From: Tubulanus polymorphus | Taxonomy: Eukaryota > Nemertea > Palaeonemertea > Tubulaniformes > Tubulanidae | Length of the DNA stretch: 64,000 bases | NCBI RefSeq assembly: GCF_964204645.1 | Contig: NC_134027.1 | Coordinates: 6,250,485-6,314,484, forward strand | Direction: 5' to 3' | Part shown: positions 7,633 through 62,803 of the stretch, one piece after another | How positions within the stretch are numbered: position 1 is the first letter of the stretch | How the letters are laid out: every line of letters starts with the position of its first letter | Notes under the pieces: generated by a model | What the model was told of the DNA's origin: nothing | Database searches by the model: none | Seen by the model: the letters and a program-made list of their open reading frames with translations, nothing else | Translations under genes and position numbers: made by a program

Positions 7633-10600
7633 TTAAAGTTTTTTCGGTAGAGGCTCAACGAGCATGCTCTCTATACATTCAAACACGGTGTGCGGATCTT
7701 GGTCGGCGTTTAAATGTTGGCCATCGGTGTAAAAATCGGCGATCTCTTCGACGTAGACGTGGTACTGCGTAAGACGTTTTTTCACCTCCTTTTCGCTGTT
7801 TTTCGGGTGGTATACAAGACGGTTTTTAATCTGTTGAGTTCGCGGTGGGTTGTACAATAAGTGATAACGCTCGCCGGTGATCGGGTCGGTCGCTAACATT
7901 GACAAACGCTCAATGATTGAATCGTTCGGTACATCCATGAAAAACACCCTGAAAATGATAAGAAATTTACAATAAATGATAGGTACATTAAAGCTACACG
8001 TGCAATTGATTGAATTATTTTTTCTAAAAAATTTTTTATTCCTAATCGTACAGCAAAGTACAATGCTCATTGAGCAGAACAAGAAAAAAAGAATTGTTAC
8101 AATATACAAATGCTATCCTGCTGATGAAAAAGTAGAAGTAGTCTGCATTCTTAGTGGATACTTTTTAATCCAAATTATCAAGAAATCTGAACAGAAATGA
8201 TATTTCATGAATCATGCTAAGATTTAATTAATTGAATGGGTTTCATAGCACGTCATACAGCATGCACTACAGCCAAGTTCAAATGCACTCACTCATAGAG
8301 AGAGAGTTAACTACTGGAAGTCAAGTGATAATTCTACTTTTTTGAGGCAAATAAGAAAACACTTATTAATGTTATTCAGTAGCTTCAATTTGACTGTTTA
8401 AACTGCTAGTTAGAATTCAATTCATTGATAATATTACTGGTACCTGTTAGGAATAAATCCAGCAGTGGTAAGTTGTTCAGCCTGCTCTCGAGTACGCGGA
8501 TATCCATGGAGAACCCAACCACGTGTAACGCAGTCCAACTGACTTAGTCGATCCTTCAGTATATTCAAGACAAGAGCATCGGGAACTGAAAGGAGAACAC
8601 CCAAAAATGTTTTCAATAATAAATATGACAATATGATAAGTATGATATTGAATCTGTTGATAGTGTTATCATCATATTGAAAGTGTCTGGATTATAATTC
8701 CAGTAAGTTTACATACCCAACATTTCTTTTTCAATGTAAGGCTTAATAGCTGTTCCCATACTAGTCTCATCAACTATACACTGCTTTATCAACTGTCCCA
8801 TAGACACTGAAATAGGATATTTATCATTCATAATGGTGATATAGACTTTAACCAAATACAAGCATTGAAATTACCTAGGTACCAAGACAAGTGATATTTC
8901 AAAGACTTTTGCTTACCATTTACGATATTATATTTACTAGCAAGTAAAGCTGCCTGTCCTGCTTTTCCACATCCAGTCGGTCCAAGCAGTACAACTCTTG
9001 GATTATGAGGGGCAGCTGATCTGCGTTGACTTTGAAGGAAAGTTATAACTGAAAATCAAACAAAAAATCTATAGAAACAGGTTTACTTTAAAATACAAAT
9101 AAGATGTAAAATTGGAGATTTCCAGGTATTTATTGAGTAATGAATGGAGTCTCTGATTCTCTATCAACCTTGTGAGAAGACGTCTGATTTTGGTTGATCA
9201 GCATTGATGAATTTAGTTGATTTCTGAAAACAGTCGACAATTCCCTCGATGTGTCTGTGATAGACCATCAATTTTTCAACAAGTTCTTCTTCGTTGTTTC
9301 CCACTTCTTCTTCGAGACGTTCCACGACTTCAGCACTGGTTGGCCAATCAAAACTTACATGGTACACATCTAATTAGTACCGGCAAATAGAAAAATCAAA
9401 CTAGTTATTCTTCTGCTACCGTTATATTGAAATAATGATTTGGTTGGTAGCACTTAAAATTCTCACTGCAAACAATTAAACCGAAGAGGATAGAAATAAG
9501 TTTAGGGTTGTAACATACCACCAGTTTTGGGATCAACTCTTTTTCCTGCTGCCCTTTCAATAAGAACTGTGTCTGGAGCCTCTAAAATAACTGCGATGAA
9601 TAAAAGATAGAAATACCTATTTCATCTCACTGATCAACTCGGAAAGTAGGTAAAGTCCGTGCAATGTTTTAGAGTTCCAACTCTCAACTCTTGTCAACTA
9701 CATGGCAAGAGCAATTTGTTGTTTCATTGCAGTCTTTTTGCCAAAAGTAGAATACATGTAGTAACAAAACACATGTAGCAATAATACTTAACCTACCACA
9801 ATGTTTTGGATAAATTCCTGCTGTGACTAAGGCCAAAGCTTGTTCTCTGTTCTGTGGGAATCCTTCCAGAACCCAACCCTTTTTCACGCAGTCGAAAAGT
9901 TGTATTCGTTCTTTTATGATTTCGACCCACACCGATGTAGGAACAGACTGAAATGTTATGCCAAATCTTCCTAAGTTTCTCAAAGACGACATACCATTGC
10001 AAAATGTAACTTTCCCATGAAGGGCTAGCAACCATTTACAGCGATTGATGGCAAAGAGGTCAAAGAATCAATTACAACTATAGATATAAAATGATTGTAT
10101 AGAATTAGAAGTAAGGTAAGAAAGGCTAGTTGAAAATTGCTTTAAAAGATTGAATAACCTGTTTCTGTTTGACCAATTCTTCCAAACGTCTTTTCATGTC
10201 TTGACTCGCATCTTGAACAAGTGTTTTCAAGTTGAGATGAGCCGTACGCAGTTTGCTGCAAATTTGCTTTGCCATAGTATACTTTCCAGCTGCTGGTGGA
10301 CCAAGTAAAATGATTTGTGGAACTGAAACGAAGCCAACATAAGACCATTAAATACACATATCATGATGAAATGAAGTTTAATCGTATTTCTATGGGAACT
10401 CATCAAACTTACTGTCATCATTTTCTCTTTTCAATAATTCAATCATGAAATCAATCGGATCCTCTGGTTTGTTAACTGTTACTTGCTCAAGCAATCGCTG
10501 TAAAATGAATGATGATCATCATTAAAGAATCTTTTTTTAAAGAATTTGTTCATGTTTTACAATCATGGAGGCCTATTCCGGCCTAATATTAGTTTGTAGT

Positions 10601-11799: not shown

Positions 11800-13401
11800 A
11801 TGATCAGGTTGGCTATACTAACATTAGCAGTGTTTTCATCAGTTGAATCAATTGCCCAAGTCGACTGGAGAGCCGAAGGCGCCGTCACTGAAGTAATGAA
11901 TCAGGTATATTACCAATCTGTTACATACGCCATCATCTTTCAGTTGTCAGTTTTGTCATAAACCACCGCAAAATATTCATTTTGAAAAAAAGTTGATGCT
12001 AGTTACTCAACGCTATCCTATAAAACTTTAAACTATTGTCCTAATCTATTTCTAGTTCTGATTTTATGATTTTCCATTATCACTCAATATTTTAAAGTGT
12101 TGTACGTTCTTCAAAATGAACAATTAAAAAGATGACATTTCTTTTTTCATTTACACTCATTCGTTTCTCGCCTTATTTGGCCATATTTTTCTTTATTTGT
12201 GGTAGGGTCAATGTGGATCTTCGTGGGCATTTGCTGCAACTGGAGCGCTCGAAGGTTTCTTTTTTCGTAAAACAGGCAAACTCGTTAAACTTTCCGAACA
12301 AAACGTAGTGGACTGTACGAAGAGCTTTGGTAAGGAATGCGGGCAAACATACCATCAGTTTTTCCCACGGATGCCTTGCAAATAAGCAGCACAAACCTAT
12401 CACGCTATGGTGCCAGGCCATTATAGTTCACGCTTTATGCATACTTATGTAAATCTATATTTTAATGCAAATAGAACCCATTCAAATTGACCCCTTTGAT
12501 AATAACTATGAAGGTAATTAATAAATAATATGTAGGTAACAATGGATGTAGAGGAGGCTGGCCAGGGAACGCTCTCAAATACGTTCGAAGCAACACAGGT
12601 ATCGACACAGAAAGCTCCTACCCGTACTATAAGAGGGTAAGTAGTAAATGGAGGTTTATCTTTGCAAAGGATTGAGCGATTGTTTTGCCACTGATCTAAC
12701 TTATGGATTTTTTCCTCCCAGGAACTCGGTTATTGCTATTACAGAAGGGAATATAATGGTGCTTCGAGTGGAGTCAGCGGTATTAGTTATATTCCAACGG
12801 GTGATGAAAATGCGCTGAAGGCCGCTGTTAAGATAGGACCAGTAGCCGCATCGATCGATGCATCGCATCCGTCTTTCTCTACCTACCGTAAAGGTATTTA
12901 CTACGAATCGAGATGTGGAAATGGGCTAAAACACCTTACGCAGTCAGTACTTATTGTCGGTTACGGCAATGAAAGCGGAGCGGACTACTGGCTTATAAAG
13001 AACAGGTAACTTGTATACTTTATGAGGCAATCACGTTTGTGTAATAATATATTGGCAGCGCATACCATAGCGTTATCCATGTATTGATATTGCTGCTTAT
13101 ATTGCGATATCTGCAGAATTCAACACGGATATTCTTCTCAGGAAACATGTGTACCACTAATCCAATAGGGTTAGTCTTGGGAAACCAAGATCCAAGCGAC
13201 GTAAAGCCTAACGAACAAAACCCTCTTCGGCGTTCATGGCACCACTCAACGCGTTTCAATGACAATTTCCATTTCTTTTCAATGCGAGATTTTTCTCATT
13301 ACAGTTATGGAACCTTTTGGGGATTGGAAGGCTACATGAAAATAGCCAGAAACAGAAACAACCAGTGCGGCATCGCTACTAAGGCATTCATTGTAATATG
13401 A
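11800..13401 (+). CDS. Secreted cathepsin L-like pseudoprotease (C1A fold, Cys to Ser, His to Gln, no propeptide)
   Basis: Five exons: 11800-11904, 12206-12329, 12536-12636, 12722-13005 and 13305-13401, joined in frame to 236 aa. Residues 1-19 are a signal peptide ([14 protein letters not shown]...), followed directly by the mature papain-domain start [17 protein letters not shown]. There is no I29 inhibitor propeptide, and exon 1 leaves no room for one. The active-site block is GQCGSSWAF, so Ser41 sits where papain has Cys25. The oxyanion Gln37 is kept. The His block reads [12 protein letters not shown], so Gln184 sits where papain has His159 (fixed by the VGYG anchor). Asn204 is kept in the KNSYGTFWG block. 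Other papain-domain cysteines ([23 protein letters not shown]) remain. Cysteine-protease activity is not expected. A binding or structural role is an inference. The frame is intact, so it does not look like a decaying pseudogene. Confidence 0.9.
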
Positions 13402-13424: not shown

Positions 13425-13430
13425 AATAAA
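13425..13430 (+). terminator. Polyadenylation signal for the papain-like gene
   Basis: AATAAA 23 bp after the stop codon, which implies a very short 3' UTR. Confidence 0.6.
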
Positions 13431-14268
13431 GCATTAGAAAATAGACATTGCAAAAGCGAAAAAATTATGGTCTTTTTAATTTCGACGTTCATTTTCACAA
13501 TTTTGGTCACAGAATCCTTTTTCGTGATTCCTGCATAAAACAGCCTCCATATCCTCTCATCCAATAAAACAACAAAACACCGAGCCTTTGTGTGGAGGTT
13601 TAATTTCAATTCGGTTTTATTTCAATTGCCTTTTTAAAAAAGGTGGTGATTTAAGTTTTTCCGAGAAATAACCAACATTGATAATCTTAAAGATCAGAGG
13701 AAAAGTTTAAGCCACTCTAGAAAAATTGATATCCTCCAACGAACAGTCCGGAATAACCTATCTTTGTTTGGTAAAGAAAATTAAAAGATTATCAAAATAC
13801 TTTGGGATTTACAAATGAAATTACATTTTGAATTACCCGCCAGATGACTCACGGCCATTGCACAACCACAACATGTTCAGACAGGATTACTGCTCGAACA
13901 GGTTCAGGCAGGTTTCAGTGCTGCGCTCTGTCGCAAACGGCTATAAGTACGGTGCGCGCTGGAGAAATTACAGTACAGTAACGCGAACATTGATCATAAC
14001 CACACACACTTCACACCCATACACACGAAGCAGTGAAGCGGCGAAATTTTAAGTAAGAAAGGATTGGGTTCGCAACGAACTATCCAGTCTTACTTGAAAC
14101 CGAAAACGACATCTTTTATTTTGGATGTTGAAAAATTCCAATGTCGAAACAGCTATGTTAAAAAATGAATAGAAAATGCATTTCATTAGAATATCGAATT
14201 ATTATTCATCATTTATGTTATAGTTTTAGGGGGAGATTTTAGGGTCGATTTCTTAATTACAGGTCGAA
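13431..14268. other. Intergenic, upstream of the VWA gene
   Basis: No supported coding exon. The sequence just before 14269 (cttaattacag) looks like a splice acceptor 6 bp upstream of the ATG, so a non-coding 5' exon of the VWA gene probably lies in this interval. It was not located. Confidence 0.45.
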
Positions 14269-16206
14269 ATGGCACCAAAACGACCGTCGACAAATTCTTT
14301 TCTCCCCACCCCTAACAAACGAAGTCGGACATCGAAGCCTCCAGCCCCGTATCCCGGAGGACCGATGGAAATTGTCTTCTCGTTCGATACGACAGGATCT
14401 ATGAGCGGATGCTTGGCTGCAGTTCGTACGAAGGTTCAACAAATAATTGGCCGCTTGTTCAGAGATATGCCCATGTTACGCATTGCGGTTATAGCGCATG
14501 GGGACTACGAAGATCGATGTTGTTACGTGACGAAAATGCACGATTTTTCGGCCAACGTCGACGACTTAGTTACTTTCGTTAAAGATGTAGGTGCAACTTG
14601 CGCGGCGGCAGATCCTGACGAATGTTACGAACTGGTTTTGAAAGAGGTCTCGGAAATGTCGTGGTCACCAGGATCACAGCGGTCGCTGGTGATGATCGGT
14701 GATCGGAATCCTCACGAACCATCGTATTACCAGTTGTGGAAAAACCGTAGTCCAAGTACCGTACCTTCACAACCTATTGACTGGCGCGAACAGGCTGATA
14801 ATCTTCATGATATGGTATGTTTTTCTTTTCATCAATTTCTCTCTTTTAGTCCGCGTTTTTAGCGCTTAAACGTTACTAGGCTGGTAGCTTATCATTTTGC
14901 CATTAAGTGGCCAGGTAACCACTATATTAGGTTGATATATTCCATCGAATTTTGCCTTTTCCTTCGTTGATCATTATATTATATCAATGACTTTTTTGTT
15001 TATTGACTTTTTTTCATACATTTACTTTTCAGGGAGTTCACATTTATAGTGTCCACTGCAGGGGGGAATCAACATCTAAGTTCTTCTACACCGACCTGGC
15101 TAGACGTACGGACGGAGCTTACATTCAACTAAGTGATTTCTCAAACGTATATGATATGCTTATGGCGATTTGCTACAGAGAGAATGGTCCCGATATGTTT
15201 ACGGTAGGTAACGTTTTTATCCGAATTCGTAGCTCAAATTATCTGAGATTTTAAGTATCAATATTTCAAGCATATTCTATCAATTATCGAACAACTTTCA
15301 CTGAATTCATCAAGAGATCATAGAATATCTTATCATATTTTCAGGCATACGAACATGAGGTTCGTGGGCGGGGTACAATTCATCCCGAAATGGACCAAAT
15401 GTTTTCTGACTTGAGAACAGCGGCTTCTTCCACTGAGAATCAATCGCCCCTACCCTTATCGTCACTTCCTAAGGCCAATACAACGACCAAGAAACCTTCA
15501 TCTAGACAGTGCAAAAAAGAGCCGGTGTACATGAAAAAGAATCGGTTAGAAACGAAGAAGGTGAGAAATCATGCTTTTATGGTAGTGATTTAAATTTAGA
15601 ATAATTTCATCTAATACCTCCTAACAATGATTCCGTATTCTTCTTCAGGTGCTTGTTTCGCAAATGCGACGACGGAGTCAACCTATATCGTACAATAAAG
15701 TTATCACCAGAGACGAAAAATCGAAATTACCCTTAGTTTTCTGGTCCAAATGGAAAAGATGTATGGCTTTGTCTCCATCTCCCAGCGATCAAATCACTCG
15801 ACCGCGAGCAGATGGAGTTGGTTCGAAACTTCCCGTTTTATTCGGTCGTTTTAAGAACGAACGAGCATGTTTATTCGAGTTCTCGGTTCGTCTGCCCGTA
15901 TCTTCAACACTTTACGTCACGCATATTTCTGCTGCCGTGCAGAAAGGTACCATGCCAAACTGGGAGAACGTGCTCCTCCGAGCTCGACATATTAGGGATG
16001 AAATCACGGACGTATTGAGCCAGGGCTGTGAAATTTTTGTAAGGAGGGCAGTTATGCGCGAAATAGAATGTTGGGACGATTTAAGAGAAACGCGAGATAT
16101 TTTCTCTGAAGTGAATGACTATGCGTGGCAGAAGATGGCGTGTGGACGTAGAACACATAAAACAGTTGTTAGACGTAGTTACACTATCTCAGATAGCATC
16201 ATGTAA
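14269..16206 (+). CDS. VWA-domain protein, probably intracellular, function unknown
   Basis: Four phase-0 exons: 14269-14814, 15033-15203, 15345-15560 and 15649-16206, giving 496 aa. There is no signal peptide. Residues 3-24 are basic with Pro/Ser/Thr (PKRPS, NKRSR) and could act as a nuclear localisation signal. A von Willebrand factor A domain spans roughly residues 33-235: the strand EIVFSFD leads into a MIDAS-like DTTGS (40-44), and LVMIGDRNPHEPSY (140-153) matches the strand and metal-site Asp near the end of such domains. The DTTGS form resembles VWA domains of the vwkA/alpha-kinase type, but I see no kinase domain. The second half has a low-complexity Ser/Lys linker followed by a conserved-looking region of about 180 aa with VFWSKWKRCMALSP that I do not recognise. 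It may bind partners through the metal site (inference). Confidence 0.85.
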
Positions 16207-43365: not shown

Positions 43366-61370
<18,005 letters not shown>

Positions 61371-62803
61371 CTGCAAATATACAATAAACAAAATCTGATT
61401 ATGAATATCCTTCGATATGTTAAGTTGGCAGTTTTGCAATGAACATGGATTACTTAATTCCACCAGATGTCAGGGCAATGGAGATAGTGCACTAAATCAA
61501 TGAGAAACTAATCTAGATAGACAGCTGACAATTGATGGAGAGAGTACATCACTGACATCCACTATCCATAGAAAAAACATTTCTATTTCCTTGCATAGAC
61601 ACCGACTTTTTATAATGCTTTTAGTTAGAAAAGAACTAGCAACAACCAAGCAGGTTTGCTATTGTGTTTTTTTACTCCAAGACATACAGCTCTGATCACA
61701 TTATGAGGAAGGAGCTTTTACTATTTTGAGAATGATATCGTATATAACTTATTCATAACTATGATAGCTGTATTACATGCAGAGTCTAAACATCAGATCC
61801 AGAAGTGTAAAAGTGGAATTGTATTCTGATGTAGGAAGATTTTTCATATATTGGTTGTGATGTGTTTCCTCATTTTGATATGATCTGAAGACTGTAGACA
61901 GGGCAACTGGATGATACCAAGATTAACCAATGTACTGGGTGACTATACAACAAGGTATACTGGGTGACTAGGTGGGTAACTGGCCAGCCGACTGGGGAAA
62001 CTGCAGTTATCAGAGTTATTAGACAATTTGTGAACTAAATGAATGTCGTTAGTGTTAACTACAGTCCGAAAAAGTGAACCACACGCGCAACTGAGCACGA
62101 TCGCTTTATTTCAGACCGAAGATGGCCGACACTGTGAAACTTGAAATACCGCACTATAGTATAAGTGTTATGCTTGCCATTCACAGTCACCAGAAGTTCT
62201 CTTAACCTATCTGACGGTATTCATCATCAAGTTTACAATGACAATCTTTTTTTTCAAATCTGTACATGAAGATGAAGACGCAGCACTTTTGTGCACTAAT
62301 TAAACTTATGTCTGACTAACTTTCATAATATCGATTTTTGTATAGAGTGTCTATGATTTCAGTGCTCATTTTGTAGGTGCAATAATCCTGGTATAGACAT
62401 TACACTCGCATGATTCTAAGGAGAATATAATCTCTGAACTACACTGGTATGTAAGATAATTGATTCCGTAAATAAAGTTCAGGGATGTCAATACCCGCAC
62501 CCCCTATAGTTGAGGTCTCGGAAACACAGTTCAATAATTTCAATTTTTCTCAATTTAGCCAAGATGCAAGACTGACTCGCAAAATCAATTATACAAAGAA
62601 ACAGTTTCTGACCTGAATTAAAAGTACTGGTGCCAACGCAATTCATCCTGGATGTTTTGATCATTACGGGAGCATGTTGAACACTGTGCGACTTTATTTG
62701 GAAAATAACTCTTCGAGACCTCCTGACCTAAATTTTCTATTATGTACCTGAGTCACCTTTTTCACAAAGTATCGACATAGAAGGTCAATCTTCAACGGAC
62801 CTC

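Follow-up and report, generated by a model that had tools for sequence, protein, structure and literature searches.

A putative secreted cathepsin L pseudoprotease without a recognisable propeptide in the nemertean Tubulanus polymorphus

What becomes of a cathepsin L gene when its catalytic cysteine and histidine have both been replaced and no propeptide can be recognised ahead of the mature domain? This question is raised by a gene on contig C3 of Tubulanus polymorphus, located in the 64,000-nucleotide stretch of DNA that was analysed here as a whole (hereafter the window). The initial annotation had described an intact, five-exon gene for a secreted papain-fold protein with Ser in place of the catalytic Cys, Gln in place of the catalytic His and a signal peptide joined directly to a mature domain that keeps the fold and its disulfide cysteines, and had read this combination as the mark of a repurposed, non-proteolytic family. 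The features of the locus are as follows, in window coordinates.

11800-13401, plus strand: the window gene, a cathepsin L paralogue on contig C3, with five exons and four GT-AG introns
11800..11904, plus strand: exon 1, with the start codon, a signal-peptide-like stretch and then the mature N-terminus
12206..12329, plus strand: exon 2, GQCGSSWAF..., in which Ser41 (codon TCG) takes the place of the catalytic Cys25
12536..12636, plus strand: exon 3, NNGCRGGWP..., with the GCxGG motif kept; 101 nt, like the matching exon in paralogues L012 and L013
12722..13005, plus strand: exon 4, with Gln184 (His163 position), two 2-residue insertions and, near its end, Asn204 (Asn187 position)
13158..13219, no strand: copy of a dispersed repeat of about 62 bp, in intron 4 and outside the gene product
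13305..13401, plus strand: exon 5, beginning within the Ser205 codon, with Tyr206 for Trp189, and running to the stop
13425..13430, plus strand: AATAAA, a polyadenylation-signal-like hexamer read from the sequence, 23 nt past the stop codon

The exons of 105, 124, 101, 284 and 97 nt join into a coding sequence of 711 nt that encodes 236 amino acids with zero internal stops, which bears out the intact gene described initially. The start codon is at 11800, and an in-frame TGA lies just 5' of it. PF00112 was the sole Pfam family found in the protein (244.5 bits, profile positions 4-218 of 220, residues 20-234), with no match to the I29 propeptide family. The best solved relatives were cathepsins L (9hjy, fibroinase and cathepsin V, with E values down to 3.1e-71), and the best 60 of 174 PDB matches carried the names cathepsin L, V, S and K, related cathepsin L-like names, fibroinase and silicatein. 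Over the mature domain, identity was 51.9-54.6% to human cathepsins L and V and to PDB rows 9hjy and 8iui (51.9% to human cathepsin L), and 57.4%, 55.0%, 50.7% and 47.6% to the paralogues L013, L010, L012 and L016 of the same genome. With a full PF00112 domain and its best matches among cathepsins L, the protein is, as a homologue judged by sequence, a member of the cathepsin L subfamily of C1A.

The genome searched comprised 268 Mb in 77 contigs. COX1 gave no match in it, and the opening 1,500 bases of four of the 77 contigs contained no telomere array. The repeat in intron 4 proved to be a dispersed element, as 39 of 40 scored matches (322 candidates) were copies of it elsewhere in the genome at 89-98% identity. 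Upstream of the gene, frames on the minus strand at 7636-10347 gave weak adenylate kinase (ADK) matches, all under the Pfam cut-off. Downstream, neighbouring frames lie on the plus strand at 14257-16203; neither of the two scanned had a Pfam match, and the first (FSFDTTGSMSGC) presumably resembles a von Willebrand A-type domain. Two minus-strand frames farther along, at 43369-43986 and 59833-61398, matched AXH (ataxin-1/HBP1) over domain parts 67-116 and 1-72 of 116. The ionotropic glutamate receptor channel family (PF00060) gave 76 matches genome-wide, counted exon by exon, which is many for an animal with a genome of this size.

Alignment to cathepsin L placed Ser41 at Cys25, Gln184 at His163 and Tyr206 at Trp189 (Trp177 in papain), and all three residues are replaced; Gln35 (Gln19) and Asn204 (Asn187) are both kept. 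The two catalytic substitutions first noticed were thereby confirmed, and the initial annotation is right and slightly understated, the loss of Trp189 and the two 2-residue insertions being additional. The Cys25-His163-Asn187 triad of an active peptidase reads Ser, Gln and Asn in the alignment, and the catalytic death that these residues predict is well supported. One of the insertions is found directly before the strand bearing Gln184, and His181 lies three residues ahead of Gln184, in a loop longer by two residues. The cleft is further altered by Met70 to Pro86, Ser133/Val134 to Ala152/Ala153 and Gly164 to Ser185, changes that fall on the wall of the S2 pocket. The protein retains Trp26 as well as the GlyGly of the strand that binds substrate. 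Its six cysteines (38, 72, 81, 115, 175 and 226) stand at the columns of the three cathepsin L disulfides, with no further Cys among the 236 residues; all the cysteine columns being matched, the three bonds themselves would be expected to form, in keeping with the fold and disulfide cysteines described at the outset. The protein is basic, with a pI of 9.04 and a charge of +6.9; the pI is 5.01 for L010, 5.20 for L013 and 8.53 for L012.

Conservation was scored against nine triad-type relatives, namely L010, L012 and L013, in which the triad is intact, and six PDB rows, two of which were taken as engineered and had their Cys25 column set to Cys. The window gene keeps 59 of the 69 columns that are invariant among these relatives, and the ten that it has lost are K17, C25, S29, Q37, L53, A127 (an alignment gap), S133, V134, H163 and W189. 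Of the five catalytic-centre columns three are lost, compared with 7 of the remaining 64 (Fisher p = 0.019), the five columns having been picked from knowledge of papain after the sequence had been seen.

The signal-peptide-like stretch of exon 1 reaches a 9-residue hydropathy of 2.87, and cleavage would fall at SIA|Q, directly before QVDWR. By a simple rule, a signal-like in-frame ATG stretch precedes 215 of 127,800 window positions, and the start of the gene is therefore unlikely to have arisen by chance. The corresponding exon of L013 opens with the end of the propeptide; that of the window gene opens with the start codon and a hydrophobic stretch. A model made from the four sister propeptides found none in the window, where the best fragment had E = 6.2; the sister exons, on which it had been trained, reached 1.1e-21. 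In spliced alignments, a propeptide exon was found upstream of each of the four sister genes, and propeptides taken from paralogues, never from the gene being aligned, scored 121-182 at these genes versus 48-70 at the window gene, scores that take in the mature N-terminal exon common to all paralogues. An I29 family search of the genome (E 0.001) gave, among the matches listed, four sites (L010, L012, L013 and L016) and none on C3, in agreement with the missing I29 domain. The same search was silent at genes labelled cathepsin F, O and 26/29-type, and is therefore sensitive to cathepsin L-type propeptides only; these labels, like that of cathepsin B used below, are our assignments from the look of the sequences. 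By these Pfam, model and alignment searches a recognisable propeptide exon appears to be absent from the gene, and the direct junction proposed initially was upheld: the predicted protein is a putative signal peptide, signal-peptide-like by the simple rule, fused straight to a complete cathepsin L domain.

The exon structure connects the gene to its sisters. Exon lengths of 101 and 97 nt and an NQ|G junction are common to the window gene, L012 and L013, the L016 model shares NQ|G and the 97-nt length, and exon 5 has this same length in four cathepsin L paralogues. One intron has been lost, the 284-nt exon 4 being the fused counterpart, with four extra codons, of L012/L013 exons of 161 and 111 nt. 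The remaining introns are kept, and an origin of the window gene as a processed retrocopy is therefore ruled out. The closest sister is less clear. In a tree of 11 rows with 200 bootstraps, which excludes the genes labelled cathepsin F, O and 26/29-type, the window gene paired with L013 in 70%, with L012 in 15% and with L016 in 2% of replicates; in a tree of 8 rows, from which L016 and cathepsins K and S were also excluded, it paired with L013 in 46% and with L012 in 38%. The partial model L014 (labelled cathepsin B) was excluded from every tree. The codon model preferred a pairing with L012, with which a shared GGWP motif and 124-nt exon agree. Tree and codon model thus disagree on the place of the window gene among cathepsins L, and long branches may mislead. 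L012 (C4:11052000-11061500) carries a full triad and a propeptide, yet is itself basic, and its branch roughly matches that of the window gene in length.

A second cathepsin L paralogue with Ser for Cys25 was found in L016 (C7:4517500-4526000, exons on the minus strand), which reads GSMGSSVPIS. It keeps the His, Trp189 and the I29 propeptide; Cys22, Trp26 and the GCxGG motif are gone, the GCxGG region resting on doubtful short exons, and it may be a pseudoprotease or a decaying gene. At the catalytic position the codon is TCG in the window gene, AGT in L016, TGC in L010 and L013 and TGT in L012. TCG is two changes away from TGC or TGT, one of which is silent once Ser has been reached. Since no single silent change leads from TCN to AGY, and only 2% of bootstraps join the two genes, separate losses of the cysteine appear likelier from these codons and trees. 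Of the recurrence considered in the initial annotation, Ser at Cys25 was thus found again in one paralogue, but without the loss of His and I29 and without a grouping of the two genes. The annotation's interpretation also held in part: an intact cathepsin L paralogue with a signal-like start and conserved fold residues does combine the replacement of Cys and His with the lack of a recognisable propeptide, but the "family" it spoke of was not seen, no second copy of the gene having been found in the 268 Mb genome, and none of the results pointed to the lectin-like, matrix or defence roles that it had suggested. No relative was confirmed in a collection of prokaryote contigs (36 pattern matches) or of viral contigs (4 pattern matches), neither of which consists of animal genomes.

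Our preferred reading, to which we give about an even chance, is that a cathepsin L duplicate has turned into a secreted pseudoprotease that most likely acts by binding. With two of three catalytic residues lost and no recognisable propeptide, the protease has probably turned non-enzymatic. The main alternative is early decay, in which a duplicate recently lost catalysis and its 5' exons and has not yet accrued stops or frameshifts. We consider this unlikely, albeit a serious contender. Relaxed selection yields losses of catalytic residues and propeptide, the window-gene branch is about six times that of the least-changed sister, and L016 has also lost Cys22, Cys25, Trp26 and GCxGG. On protein branches the window gene measures 0.96-1.12, L012 0.91-1.03 and L016 0.93 versus 0.15-0.19 for L013 and L010; a long branch also fits relaxed constraint and so counts against a binding protein, though L012 and L016 are similar and L012 bears the triad. 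Against decay, 711 nt have stayed free of stops and frameshifts at 47.6-57.4% identity to four cathepsin L paralogues, the six disulfide cysteines, the splice sites of all four introns and 59 of 69 invariant columns are kept, and the gene retains a signal-peptide-like start of the kind expected at 215 of 127,800 positions.

Selection was examined by a codon test on four genes and 209 codons under three topologies, L016 being left out. Omega = 1 over the whole window-gene branch was rejected in all three (2dlnL 27.35, 20.71 and 25.44), which argues against decay, although synonymous change was saturated, branch lengths were at the bound, the omega estimate near 0.01 is not meaningful, and a whole-branch test averages in any period when the gene was still active. 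Convergence was incomplete in one fit (2dlnL -1.9). On the control branch of L012, which keeps the triad, omega = 1 was not rejected (2dlnL 0.83-2.14), which means either a test of low power or relaxed selection on L012 itself. Recent decay keeps some probability, given saturated synonymous sites and a branch that, like those of two sister genes, is long; the gene is intact and probably functional.

For a pseudoprotease acting by binding, we envisage the following. The putative signal peptide would be cut off before QVDWR, and the protein would enter the secretory pathway in "mature" form with no zymogen stage. Without the Cys nucleophile and the His base, peptide hydrolysis by the papain mechanism would be impossible, and an inhibitory propeptide would no longer be selected for because the product would be harmless. 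The fold would now have to form without the help of a propeptide, which cathepsin-type enzymes are reported to need for correct folding (PMC4924875), a point against this reading. The resulting stable two-lobed domain, with its remodelled cleft and basic surface, would bind an extracellular partner that is new and may be anionic. Basic charge and M70P are also found in the triad-bearing L012, and are therefore not specific to catalytic loss.

A related possibility is that the dead domain regulates its sisters as a decoy, competing for their cystatins, propeptide-like inhibitors or substrates. Triad-bearing L010, L012 and L013 are at hand in the same genome, the protein still has Gln19, Trp26 and the GlyGly of its substrate-binding strand, and PMC4671257 counts the regulation of active counterparts among the roles of pseudoenzymes. 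We nevertheless find such a role rather unlikely, as the cleft is altered by M70P, S133A, V134A and G164S (at the S2 wall) and by the adjoining insertion, although M70P also occurs in triad-bearing L012.

It is decidedly improbable, in our judgement, that the 5' end is mis-modelled, with an unseen upstream exon spliced to an acceptor within the signal-like stretch and encoding another N-terminus, possibly an over-diverged propeptide. A candidate acceptor, TTAG, ends at 11827 with TACTAAC ahead of it; the spliced aligner took it with two of four queries, and of 3205 YAG sites, 10 have TACTAAC in the preceding 45 nt. However, TACTAAC occurs in none of 32 intron ends (last 45 nt) of five gene models, and most of these 32 introns close on a T-rich stretch that the candidate does not have. 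The intron would also be in phase 1, whereas exon lengths put the matching intron of L013 in phase 0. Moreover, no I29-like exon was found in the window, nor on the chromosome among the matches listed (E 0.001), and the signal-peptide-like start is improbable by chance.

That the protein is a silicatein-like or other serine-nucleophile enzyme retaining some hydrolytic or mineral-condensing activity is highly improbable: it shares Ser for Cys25 with silicateins, and silicatein alpha is among its PDB matches (5.9e-57), but ordinary cathepsins L score higher, PMC6233156 describes silicateins as keeping the His and Asn and as having ASY in place of SCW, and the window protein has Gln for His and reads SSW. 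Silica formation by triad mutants is reported there too (PMC6233156), and the triad alone is therefore no firm test of that activity.

Compared with known systems, the putative pseudoprotease has the whole mature domain, the disulfide cysteines and the exon lengths and junctions of its sister cathepsin L genes, but differs from cathepsin L in its replaced Cys, His and Trp189, its basic character and the propeptide that no I29 search found. L016 resembles it as a cathepsin L-like protein with Ser at Cys25, but still has His, Trp189 and I29, and its serine is encoded by AGT rather than TCG. Silicateins have a propeptide. They too are cathepsin L relatives with Ser for Cys25, but keep Ser, His and Asn (PMC6233156), and with Gln for His the window protein is therefore not a silicatein. 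TINAG and TINAGL1 are cathepsin B-like with extra N-terminal domains, unlike the window protein, which is cathepsin L-like with PF00112 as its sole Pfam family and no extra domains. Both are described in PMC10318531 as inactive papain-like proteins that affect the contact of epithelial cells with the surrounding matrix. A precedent for the pseudoprotease reading is Plasmodium SERA5, which has a papain-like domain with Ser for Cys and an indispensable, non-enzymatic role (PMC4671257); in SERA5 that domain forms the middle module of a larger protein of the parasite, and in the window protein it stands alone. Among these inactive homologues, then, silicatein keeps the His (PMC6233156), and SERA5 and TINAG are parts of larger proteins.

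Inactive cathepsin homologues are thus already known, and what is unusual here is the combination of losses in a bare architecture. Among the matches listed in the literature (titles and abstract openings), no C1A homologue was described that lacks Cys, His and propeptide together, which is weak evidence of absence. We suggest, more tentatively than the pseudoprotease reading itself, that this gene stands at the start of a lineage of dead cathepsin L domains without propeptide, which fold by themselves and serve as small secreted binders, catalytic loss having freed a protease from its zymogen apparatus. The presence of two Ser-for-Cys paralogues with differing Ser codons in one genome suggests recurrent catalytic loss in cathepsin L. 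As a mature domain on its own, lacking Cys, His and propeptide alike, the window protein would also offer a natural test of whether the propeptide serves folding or just the control of activity.
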